The notes below the pieces were generated by a model, which was not told the DNA's origin, did no database searches, and saw nothing but the letters and a program-made list of their open reading frames with translations. A DNA stretch of 64,000 nt, from the IMG/VR virus record IMGVR_UViG_3300025778_000016, positions 1-64,000 of that record, one strand, 5' to 3'. Made by a program: the position numbers and the translations under genes. The stretch comes from a virus. Of this stretch, positions 61,058 to 64,000 are shown piece after piece (positions within the stretch are counted from its first letter, which is position 1; every line of letters starts with the position of its first letter).

Positions 61058-62067
61058 GTCTAGCGCTTTGGCATTGGCATATTGAGATAAGCAGTAAATG
61101 TACATTGCGTTGTCCAAGATGCGCACGAAGTGAAGTGCCTGAAAGTTTAGTCAACACAGAATTAGGTCTTGATTTTTTTATAAAAAACTTTGATGAAAGT
61201 TTTATTAAAAATCATGTAGAAAAACTTACATTCTGTGGTGACGATGGTGACCCCATATACGCACATGATTTTTTAAGTGTGTTAAAGTATTTTAAAAATA
61301 TTAAGCCGAACATCAGCATTGTTATAGTGACTAATGGCGGATATAAATCAAATGATTTTTGGAATGAATGTAGCAACATATTAAATGAATATGATACAAT
61401 TCATTTTAGTTTAGATGGCTGGGATAATGCCAGTAATAATTTATATAGAGTTAATAGTAACTTTGATAGTTCAATCAATGGTGCTAAAATATTAATTGAA
61501 AGTAATAAATGTTATGTAGTTTGGGACGCAATTGGATTTAAATTTAATGAAAACAAACTACGTCACATGAAACAACTAGCAAAGTCATATGGTTTTGATA
61601 TGTTTCAATTAACTAAAAGTACAAAATTTGGTGCCATATATGAACACTATGGCAAAAATGATACATTACAACCAAGTAAAAAATTAATGAGTAGTAGTCA
61701 TAGATTTGAAAGAGAATACACATATTTCACTGAAAGACGACCTAATGAAAGTTTTATGACTACTAACTTGTCACACTATGATAGTGTAGAAAATATAGGA
61801 AATATTAAACCTTTATGTCATATTGGCAATAAAGGATTGTTTATTAACAGCAAGGGAGAGTTTTTCCCCTGTTGCTGGGTAGCTAATAGATATGGTCACA
61901 ATAATAAATTTGTTGACTTAAGCAAAAGCTACAACTTACACAACGTAACTTTACAAAGTGTATTAGATTTAGATTTTTATAAAAAAAATTTTGTTAATGA
62001 TAGTTTTGAATGTAATATTAAATGTAACAAAGATATTGTTACAAAAAATTATGGTACAGAGTGGTAG
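61054..62067 (+). CDS. Radical SAM protein in the replication operon
   Basis: 337 residues. Core motif EISSKCTLRCPRC (Cys16, Cys20, Cys23). TFCGDDGDPIYA holds the place of GGEP, a clear departure. FSLDGWDNASNNLYR follows, and the C-terminal part has CHIGNKGLFINSKGEFFPCCWVANRYGHN, an SPASM-like cysteine cluster. ATGA-coupled to gp46. Radical SAM genes beside gp46 are found in other marine T4-like phages by memory, though function is unknown. Not closely similar to the 10719-16961 group. Confidence 0.8.
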   Translation: MSLALWHWHIEISSKCTLRCPRCARSEVPESLVNTELGLDFFIKNFDESFIKNHVEKLTFCGDDGDPIYAHDFLSVLKYFKNIKPNISIVIVTNGGYKSNDFWNECSNILNEYDTIHFSLDGWDNASNNLYRVNSNFDSSINGAKILIESNKCYVVWDAIGFKFNENKLRHMKQLAKSYGFDMFQLTKSTKFGAIYEHYGKNDTLQPSKKLMSSSHRFEREYTYFTERRPNESFMTTNLSHYDSVENIGNIKPLCHIGNKGLFINSKGEFFPCCWVANRYGHNNKFVDLSKSYNLHNVTLQSVLDLDFYKKNFVNDSFECNIKCNKDIVTKNYGTEW

Positions 62068-62081
62068 GAATATATAAAGCT

Positions 62082-62648
62082 ATGCCAAGTCCACAAAAAG
62101 CAAAAGGTTCAGGTTTTGAAAGAGAAGTCGCAAGATTTCTATCAGACTTATACAATGAATCATTTATACGCGCCCCAGGTAGTGGCGCATATGTGGGTGG
62201 CAAAAACAAAGCTCGTACACAAATATTACATGAAGGACAAATTCGTAGTTTTAAGGGAGATATTGTTCCAGGACAAAGTTTTCCTAAACTAAACGCTGAA
62301 TGTAAAAGTTATGCTGATTTCCCATTTCATTTAGTTTTATCTGGAGAATGTAAAGTTCTTGACGGTTGGCTAGATCAAATGATGGACGTAGCAGAAGATA
62401 ATGATCTTAATGTGCTTTTTATGAAATTTAATCGTAAGGGGCGCTTTGTTGTAGTTCAGACTAAGTATACATGGGTCACAGACCATTTCTTGTATTACAC
62501 TAGTGCTAAACACAAAGATTGGATCATTATCGAATTTGATCACTTTTTTAAGTTTAATAAAGAAATATTTGCGGCATACTCAGGCTCATCAGACACCAAA
62601 TCAAACTCTCACACTTTACCTCTTAATTCAACTCAACAATTAGTTTAA
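62082..62648 (+). CDS. PDDEXK-family nuclease, Holliday-junction-resolvase-like
   Basis: 188 residues from the ATG at 62082. A GTG at 62061 opens the frame earlier but overlaps the previous gene and adds a weak extension. GSGFEREVARFLSDL places the first acidic residue. KGDIVPG and NAECKSYADFPF provide the Asp and Glu-x-Lys of the PDDEXK active site. Such enzymes cut branched DNA or act with recombination proteins. The place after gp46/47 supports a role in replication or packaging repair. No HNH or GIY-YIG motif is present. Confidence 0.7.
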   Translation: MPSPQKAKGSGFEREVARFLSDLYNESFIRAPGSGAYVGGKNKARTQILHEGQIRSFKGDIVPGQSFPKLNAECKSYADFPFHLVLSGECKVLDGWLDQMMDVAEDNDLNVLFMKFNRKGRFVVVQTKYTWVTDHFLYYTSAKHKDWIIIEFDHFFKFNKEIFAAYSGSSDTKSNSHTLPLNSTQQLV

Positions 62649-62984
62649 TCGGGGTTGCCCGATTCTCCTTGAGCAAGCCTGGGAAGCCAGTCGCCTGCGG
62701 ATTCTGGAGTAAGCATGGCATTTTTTTAAATGTCGTGGAACACCGAGGTGGCACTCGACTGAGATTGCGAACCACCAACAAGTCTGTAACTACTATGTAT
62801 TGATGTTACAGAATGTGCGTTGCTGAACACTAGCCCAAAGCTAGCAGATTCACTACAGACCCATAATACTTTACAGAGCAACCGGTGGCGAATAGCAGCA
62901 ACAATAGCTGGCTAGTCGGGGTATATACATCAAAGGATGACGGGCAGGCAAGTTATTTTTTTGGTAGTGCTGTTTAGCACTACC
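62647..62984 (+). ncRNA. Candidate structured non-coding RNA, class not identified
   Basis: No frame of useful length fits here. Stems read on the plus strand: AATCGGG/CCCGATT (62647-62653 with 62658-62664); CATGGCATTT/AAATGTCGTG (62714-62723 with 62728-62737), with two G-U pairs that would be A-C clashes on the other strand; TCTGTAAC/GTTACAGA (62783-62790 with 62805-62812); GTTGCT/AGCAAC (62819-62824 with 62877-62882); CTAGC/GCTAG (62830-62834 with 62840-62844). An alternative pairing ACTAGCC/GGCTAGT (62829-62835 with 62910-62916) competes. TGCCCG (62656-62661) can pair with CGGGCA (62941-62946), closing the whole. It lacks tRNA and tmRNA marks. GOLLD, ROOL and group I intron classes are the ones to test. 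Boundaries are approximate. Confidence 0.5.
62963..62984 (+). other. Perfect 9-bp hairpin GGTAGTGCT-GTTT-AGCACTACC
   Basis: Nine perfect base pairs with a 4-nt loop at the end of the structured region. The T run lies before the hairpin and not after it, so it is not a plain rho-independent terminator on the plus strand; on the minus strand it would be followed by A. Possibly part of the RNA structure or a protection element at its 3' end. Confidence 0.55.
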
Positions 62985-63085
62985 ATGGCTTCTAAGCGGC
63001 AAGTGGTATGCATACCAAGTAAAGTTTTTAAATTTATAATAGATTAAGTTACTGTAAAAGATAAGACCGAACGAAGTGAGGGCTT
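62985..63085. other. Intergenic stretch without a gene
   Basis: Holds a 14-nt perfect palindrome TGGTATGCATACCA (63004-63017), a TATAAT (63035-63040) without a matching -35, and an AT-rich run. Nothing else is seen. The palindrome could be a protein-binding site. Confidence 0.4.
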
Positions 63086-63107
63086 AGACAAACGAAGTTT
63101 GTCTTTT
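63086..63107 (+). terminator. Rho-independent-like terminator, between convergent transcripts
   Basis: AGACAAAC-GAA-GTTTGTCT is a perfect 8-bp stem with a 3-nt loop, followed by T on the plus strand (63104-63107 TTTT). It closes the plus-strand operon and RNA. The minus-strand gp51-like frame ends just beside it, so the stem may also stall the opposite transcript, although no U run follows on that side. Confidence 0.5.
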
Positions 63108-63336
63108 AAAAGAAAGGCATTTGTGTTTTCTTAGTTGTTTCCAAATTACTTTCTATCAATTCATTTAAGGCATTTCTCTCATCACTGGACATATTCAAGA
63201 TATCGGTATATGTAGCTCCACCTCTCATATACCAAGCCATGGTTAGGCAGTTCTTTTTAATGTCCTTGACTTCATTCTCATATCCATCAAAAAGCTTCTT
63301 AATAGCGTCGGGTTTTAAATTAAGAAGCCTTAAACG
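63106..63336 (-). CDS. 51: gp51-like baseplate hub assembly C-terminal frame, probably made by -1 frameshift from gp26
   Basis: 76 codons in the -1 frame relative to gp26, ending at TAA 63106-63108. The frame reads LNLKPDAIKKLFDGYENEV, then CLTMAWYMRGGATYTDILNMS, and finishes ESNLETTKKTQMPFF. The MAWYMRGG and NLExTKKT stretches match, from memory, small gp51-like baseplate assembly proteins in marine T4-like phages. No ATG, GTG or TTG lies ahead of the Met in LTMAW, and the frame is open only back to a TAA inside gp26. A slippery T TTT TTC and a stem-loop sit at the start, so the product is probably a gp26-gp51 fusion. Internal initiation at the LTM ATG giving about 44 residues is the alternative. 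Confidence 0.7.
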   Translation of the reverse strand, partial: RLRLLNLKPDAIKKLFDGYENEVKDIKKNCLTMAWYMRGGATYTDILNMSSDERNALNELIESNLETTKKTQMPFF

Positions 63337-63342
63337 AAAAAA
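63294..63342 (-). promoter_or_regulatory. Programmed -1 ribosomal frameshift signal (slippery site plus stem-loop)
   Basis: On the minus strand gp26 ends GAT TTT TTC GTT TAA. The heptamer T TTT TTC (63342-63336) is in the right phase (X XXY YYZ). After a 7-nt spacer, GCTTCTTAAT (63328-63319) pairs perfectly with ATTAAGAAGC (63303-63294) across a 15-nt loop. This heptamer, 5-9-nt spacer and stable stem is the classical layout of -1 frameshift sites in viruses and tail-chaperone genes of lambda-like phages. Confidence 0.75.
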
Positions 63343-64000
63343 TCGGAAATGTTCAGTGTGAATTTAGTTTGGTATGGATGCTGACAATTAACACAGGTAA
63401 CGTCTAATGGTTTTAGTTCGCCTTCTTCACGAATTGAAGCATTTTGCTCACGTACTGCGTTATATGTATTTTTATCACAATTCAATAAAAATTCTTTGAT
63501 AAAAGTCTTTTCTTTTACAATACCGACTGGTGTTTTAATATAATCAATGGCATCAGTTAATATTTTGATAGTTAATTCTGTTATTTTTTCCAATGCTGTT
63601 TTATTTTTTTGAAGTCTAACTTCATCGCTATCACTTTCTACATAGGCTGTAGAAGTTGAAACATCAAATTGGAACAGACTAATATCAGTCATTTCTTTAA
63701 ATGTAAATGGTCTAAATTTAAAATACAATTCCCCGACATTGTATTCTTTGTCATAATTTCCTGATTTTAAATTCAATAACAATCCAGTTAGGTTTACGTT
63801 ATATTTGCCACTTTCTTCACATTTTGGGCAAACACTTTCAATTTCAAAGTTTTCCCCAGTGCTTGCTGCTTTAATGGCTATAAGTATAGCATCTAAGTCC
63901 ATGCTATTAATTTTCCATGGATCTAACATATTTGGTATACAACTCTTAACGATTTCTACTACCGCAGTTCCATTAAACAATGCGTCTGGAGTTCGTGCTG
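63330..64000 (-). CDS. 26: Baseplate hub assembly chaperone, gp26-like (5' end beyond the window)
   Basis: The frame runs off the right edge (223 codons visible). The TTG at 63980 is internal, since TPDALFNGTAVVEIVKSCIPN continues upstream. Family marks: NGTAVVEIVKSCIPNMLDPWKI, MDLDAILIAIKAAS, CPKC and CVNC as a possible zinc ribbon, and RPFTFKEMTDI. T4 gp26 helps build the central hub together with gp51. The ending LNISDFFV reaches a stop two codons past the slippery site, so a second, longer product is expected. Confidence 0.82.
   Translation of the reverse strand, partial: ARTPDALFNGTAVVEIVKSCIPNMLDPWKINSMDLDAILIAIKAASTGENFEIESVCPKCEESGKYNVNLTGLLLNLKSGNYDKEYNVGELYFKFRPFTFKEMTDISLFQFDVSTSTAYVESDSDEVRLQKNKTALEKITELTIKILTDAIDYIKTPVGIVKEKTFIKEFLLNCDKNTYNAVREQNASIREEGELKPLDVTCVNCQHPYQTKFTLNISDFFV

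Follow-up and report, generated by a model that had tools for sequence, protein, structure and literature searches.

A predicted −1 ribosomal frameshift joins gp26 to a gp51-like domain in an uncultured T4-like phage lineage and its relatives

The 64,000-nt stretch of viral DNA analyzed here (the window; positions 1 to 64,000 of IMG/VR record IMGVR_UViG_3300025778_000016) very probably contains a −1 programmed ribosomal frameshift site at the end of its gp26 gene, from which gp26 and a predicted gp26-51 fusion would arise, most likely as a short and a long version of a tail-assembly chaperone. According to the proposed mechanism, ribosomes translating gp26 would arrive at the sequence U_UUU_UUC, where a downstream hairpin would make a minority of them slip back by one base, with both tRNA-Phe re-pairing on UUU UUU. 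The slipped ribosomes would pass the gp26 stop codon and read about 76 more codons to give gp26-51, and most ribosomes would terminate at once to give gp26. Made in a fixed ratio, the two products would most likely be the short and the long chaperone that assist the tape-measure protein in tail assembly; T4 would supply the equivalent pair from two separate genes, 26 and 51. The heptamer, the stem and the open, coding −1 frame are observations, as is their conservation; the slippage itself, its efficiency and the chaperone role are what we infer, the chaperone role being very probable in light of the literature and the genomic context.

Organization of the predicted slip site in the window

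The whole cassette lies on the minus strand. The 0 frame of gp26 ends with ATT TCC GAT TTT TTC GTT TAA, which contains the slippery heptamer U_UUU_UUC (T_TTT_TTC) in gp26 phase at 63336..63342 and, one sense codon past it, the stop codon TAA at 63330..63332, a layout common to most relatives. Separated from the heptamer by a 7-nt spacer is a stem of 10 perfect pairs with a 15-nt loop (63328 to 63294), the 5′ arm of which occupies 63319..63328 and the 3′ arm 63294..63303, both supported by covariation. In the −1 frame, 63363 to 63106 is an open stretch of 85 codons, counted from stop to stop. Its part from the slip site onwards, the predicted −1 extension with the gp51-like C-terminal domain (63106..63342), comprises 78 codons followed by a stop and has no conserved start codon; in the window, no ATG, GTG or TTG occurs in this frame before residue ~35. 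These coordinates bear out the geometry given in the initial annotation, both in the phase of T TTT TTC and in the dimensions of spacer, stem and loop, as well as in its statements that the 0 frame stops two codons past the slip site (the stop being the second codon after the heptamer) and that no start precedes the conserved part of the −1 frame.

Conservation of the heptamer among T4-like phages

A scan of IMG/VR viral contigs for the −1 domain yielded 80 loci, 79 of which are assessable, the 80th (L079) ending too early. In all 79, TTTTTTC is in phase with gp26 and the next base is G. Most relatives have it immediately ahead of the gp26 stop and four have it a few codons earlier, and across this set amino-acid identity in the −1 domain falls to ~36%. 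At this site, 53 gp26 sequences (non-redundant at 90%) always read TTT TTC preceded by T, compared with a TTT:TTC ratio of 445:143 elsewhere in the same genes; no probability is assigned to this fixation because the 53 genes are not fully independent lineages.

The heptamer is also widespread in cultured phages. TTTTTTC is present in frame in 12 of 13 jumbo phages of diverse hosts (Atu_ph07, Phosso, BF, Munch, 121Q, RaK2, CBB, GAP32, PA5oct, Vibrio 2.275.O, XaC1 and Hallingskeid), and the thirteenth, XacN1, has T_TTT_TTT instead. The gp26/gp51 junction contains T_TTT_TTC in P-SSM2, S-PM2 and KVP40 and T_TTT_TTT in the pelagiphage HTVC008M and in phiM12, and in all five the −1 frame is the place of the short "gp51". 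Further scans of marine T4-like contigs showed an in-frame TTTTTT[C/T/A] together with an open −1 frame at 153 of 155 scored loci. L167 also carries the heptamer if a break in its upstream ORF is tolerated, bringing U_UUU_UUN to 154/155, and L149 lacks it because the gp26 C-terminus appears to be deleted in that contig. Such conservation among relatives excludes chance as the origin of the heptamer, and the heptamer has the X_XXY_YYZ form, conserved in 0-frame phase, of a −1 frameshift signal.

Coding signal and affinity of the −1 frame

Codon-position entropies of the −1 frame (0.79/0.39/1.14) follow the pattern of a protein gene from the first codons, and its length of 78 codons from the slip site is equal in 33 distinct window-lineage sequences. 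Alternatively, the −1 frame could be a small gene in its own right, with ribosomes reinitiating at the gp26 stop or starting at an internal ATG, and the heptamer would be incidental. Some phages do have an ATG overlapping or near the stop (ATGA in Phosso, an ATG a few codons on in cyanophages), and depositors annotated separate genes in cyanophages, 121Q and Phosso. However, no ATG is found in the first 36 codons of the −1 frame in 14 of 54 distinct relatives, a start of any kind with an SD-like 4-mer is found in just 2 of the 54, and the coding pattern, with its constraint on codons, begins ahead of any usable start. Furthermore, the heptamer is fixed and start codons are not, and the jumbo isolates, whose annotation has gp26 and either a small hypothetical gene apart from it or no second gene, include two (RaK2 and PA5oct) with no gene annotated at the −1 frame. 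A separate gene is therefore improbable.

Profile comparison of the −1 domain of the window lineage with those of jumbo phages (98.8% probability, 7e-17) indicates that the two are clearly homologous. Its matches to cyanophage gp51 (E 0.0016) and T4 gp51 (E 0.078) are weak and align on one motif, roughly S/T-x-x-(D/E)-(I/L)-x-x-M-x-x-x-E-R, at an equal position. With the cyanophage −1 domain, matches are obtained to the C-terminus of T4 gp51 (4e-6) and to positions 240-281 of phrog_150, and Pfam and PHROGs searches with the window −1 domain returned noise only. The name "gp51-like" given to this domain at the outset is hence justified by position and by the short shared motif, but is statistically weak for the window lineage alone.

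Covariation of the downstream stem

RNAfold recovers the window stem with a single-sequence z-score of only −1.68, and folding energy was therefore dropped as evidence in favor of covariation. In the window lineage (alignment A1, 30 relatives with a common start position), the stem is 83.7% paired versus 34-54% when the partner is slid, and compensatory double changes fill 35 cells versus 13.6 in shuffles, the slid controls being the safer comparison because kinship among sequences can inflate shuffle controls. Covarying pairs in A1 include columns 23-57 (GC/AU/GU), 26-54 (UA/CG) and 31-47 (CG/AU). From A1 alone, RNAalifold recovers no more than the 5 lower pairs, as the register of the upper stem differs from member to member; the stem is weak in L048. 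Cyanophage-type contigs have a different, 11-bp stem that starts 5 nt after the heptamer and is 90.7% paired versus 24-44% slid, one of its pairs being seen as UA, GC and AU. No common stem was found among the jumbo isolates. In the window lineage and in cyanophages, the covarying stems point to a downstream stimulatory structure.

The heptamer and the stem together also bear on transcriptional slippage, in which RNA polymerase would slip on the T run, always present as T6-T8, to produce mixed mRNAs. This reading is very improbable, considering that runs longer than six T are usually needed, that most members have just six T followed by C, and that such slippage needs neither a fixed X_XXY_YYZ codon phase nor a covarying stem downstream. 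Homopolymer runs are error prone and FF is invariant in gp26, which could suggest an indel introduced by sequencing or assembly, or plain conservation of Phe-Phe where gp26 ends. Both are hardly conceivable, since an identical run in >200 contigs and a dozen finished genomes, and a codon choice at FF that is fixed against the background usage, already refute them by cross-phage conservation.

The mechanism put forward in the initial annotation, a −1 shift fusing gp26 to a gp51-like domain in the manner of lambda G/GT, is thus strongly supported by comparative evidence. Across gp26-gp51 junctions the heptamer is kept (79/79 and 12/13 jumbo phages) and the stem covaries within the lineage. As to the findings that the annotation had named as contrary to its proposal, namely homologues that lack the heptamer and have an ATG and ribosome site of their own, or indels in the T run, the outcome likewise favors frameshifting.

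The gp26 gene and protein

The gp26 gene, encoding the putative short form (TAC-N-like), occupies 63330..64000 on the minus strand and runs past the window end; the full ORF (63330-64151 in G000) encodes 273 aa. The protein matches PF12322 (T4_baseplate) at 9.8e-15 with 55.3 bits, over the curated cut-off of 24.5, and phrog_150 at 3.6e-14, and a whole-genome profile search returned one PF12322 match (3.7e-16). These profiles identify the 0-frame product as a homologue of T4 gp26. Its AlphaFold model (pLDDT 87) has matches to T4-like baseplate-hub proteins in BFVD, a library of viral structures. Fold searches of the PDB with this model gave no convincing solved-structure match, with no tail-chaperone chain among the matches listed, and the listed PDB rows were dismissed as they look like long-helix coincidences. 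While the window had initially been ascribed to a marine T4-like phage of the ordinary kind, the cultured phages closest to it in gp26 are jumbo phages.

A zinc-ribbon-like pattern, CPKC...CVNC, occurs in gp26 of the window lineage, with its second half near the slip site. A ZPR1 zinc-finger match to gp26 is weak, and CP.C is retained at the corresponding place in KVP40 and T4 gp26.

Relation to tail-assembly chaperones

Tail-assembly chaperones are recognized by a short protein accompanied by a rarer form extended through a −1 shift, as lambda G/GT illustrates, and gp26 with its predicted 78-codon extension corresponds to such a short form and C-terminally extended long form. The tail-assembly chaperone frameshifts of lambda G/GT and P2 E/E′, reportedly described by Xu, Hendrix and Duda in 2004, resemble the window cassette in the position of the −1 slip, close to where the short gene ends, and in a long form with a C-terminal extension. 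They differ from it in that the lambda heptamer is not the U_UUU_UUC of the window, and in that the lambda and P2 chaperone genes are upstream of the tape-measure gene, whereas the window cassette points away from the putative one instead of preceding it.

The putative tape-measure gene is a 1190-aa ORF just beyond the window end (G000 64216-67788, plus strand), divergent from gp26 and followed by the gp20 portal gene. It carries a C-terminal GEAGPEAVVPL motif, which we take to be typical of tape-measure proteins, and Pfam and PHROG searches with it gave no match.

The gp26/gp51 frameshift had been regarded as undescribed in the initial annotation, and a literature search for the combination of gp26, gp51 and frameshift found no direct report. 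However, two later papers credit Vladimirov, Gautam & Davidson (2022, Virology 566:9-15): PMC10885494 for T4-like phages in which the chaperone has a short copy and a long, fused one, and PMC12846349 for poly-T slip sites in T4-like short forms. As relayed by these two papers, both the slip site and the tail-assembly chaperone role of gp26/gp51 appear to have been described already. The T4-like chaperones so credited represent the same kind of locus as the window cassette, with poly-T −1 signals in the short-form gene, whereas the title of the 2022 study stresses a mechanism other than frameshifting, namely one short copy and one long fused copy, in agreement with T4 genes 26 and 51. A −1 chaperone frameshift with a GTTTTT motif in Vandenendeviridae and Andersonviridae (PMC12846349, 2025) shares with the window a poly-T slip site, a −1 frame that is open across divergent genomes and a downstream frame annotated as hypothetical; those are other phage families, and the prediction is made by sequence only there and here. 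Apparently new, as judged from the literature search and the two citing papers, are the extension to jumbo phages and to an uncultured lineage, the covarying stems, and the presence of both solutions within Straboviridae (KVP40 versus T4).

If the frameshift is real, gp51 of most T4-like phages would be the tail of a frameshift fusion and not a free protein, and the annotations of cyanophages and jumbo phages would need correcting, gp51 being entered as a separate gene or missed in the checked isolates. With gp26 and gp51 as a tail-assembly chaperone pair, the long-standing puzzle that these "hub assembly" proteins pose would then become testable.

Two solutions among T4-like phages

T4 itself lacks the heptamer, its gp26 gene ending with TTC TTT GAG. 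It has two PF12322 genes (26 and 51), compared with one each in P-SSM2, S-PM2, KVP40, HTVC008M and phiM12. Because gene 51 of T4 is a separate gene with its own PF12322 domain, T4 gp51 looks like a hard-wired long form, composed of a gp26-like domain and an extension. Cyanophage gp51 is reported to have only ~20% of the T4 length and to lack the first ~200 residues (PMC3037559), which fits a short "gp51" at the position of the −1 frame. It is reasonably likely that the frameshift is ancestral across the T4-like superfamily, including jumbo phages of 280-490 kb, with the heptamer kept and the stems refolded in each lineage, and that a duplication of gp26, with the fusion fixed permanently as gene 51, released T4 from it, both solutions being found inside one family (KVP40 versus T4).

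Neighboring features

Just past the −1 stop, at 63087..63103 on the minus strand, lies a perfect hairpin, GACAAAC-TTC-GTTTGTC, the arms of which covary among relatives (alignment A3, columns 528-541). From its terminator-like position, it is probably the transcript end of the cassette.

In the jumbo isolates 121Q, BF, CBB and GAP32, ~800 bp without an annotated gene separate the −1 domain from endonuclease VII (L086 2387-3224, L084 2390-3194, L088 2390-3177 and L089 2390-3195). These stretches may possibly hold another RNA or an unannotated gene; a profile of the window RNA described below gave no match to them.

Between the gp26 cassette and the convergent ORF 62061-62648 is a candidate structured RNA of ~340 nt, recognized by covariation (62649-63000, core 62665-63000, plus strand). 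It has a GC content of 0.48 versus 0.34 for the window and a mean column identity of 67% over 23 relatives. Its 63 pairs are 98.2% formed versus 27-46% when slid, with compensatory changes in 30 pairs (183 cells), and its GU:AC cells number 80:1, indicating that the plus strand is the RNA strand. An Rfam search with the region gave no match. All loci from L001 to L052 have the element, and none of the remaining loci do. It covaries strongly and is a candidate for a new, unclassified structured RNA, possibly more novel than the gp26/gp51 frameshift.
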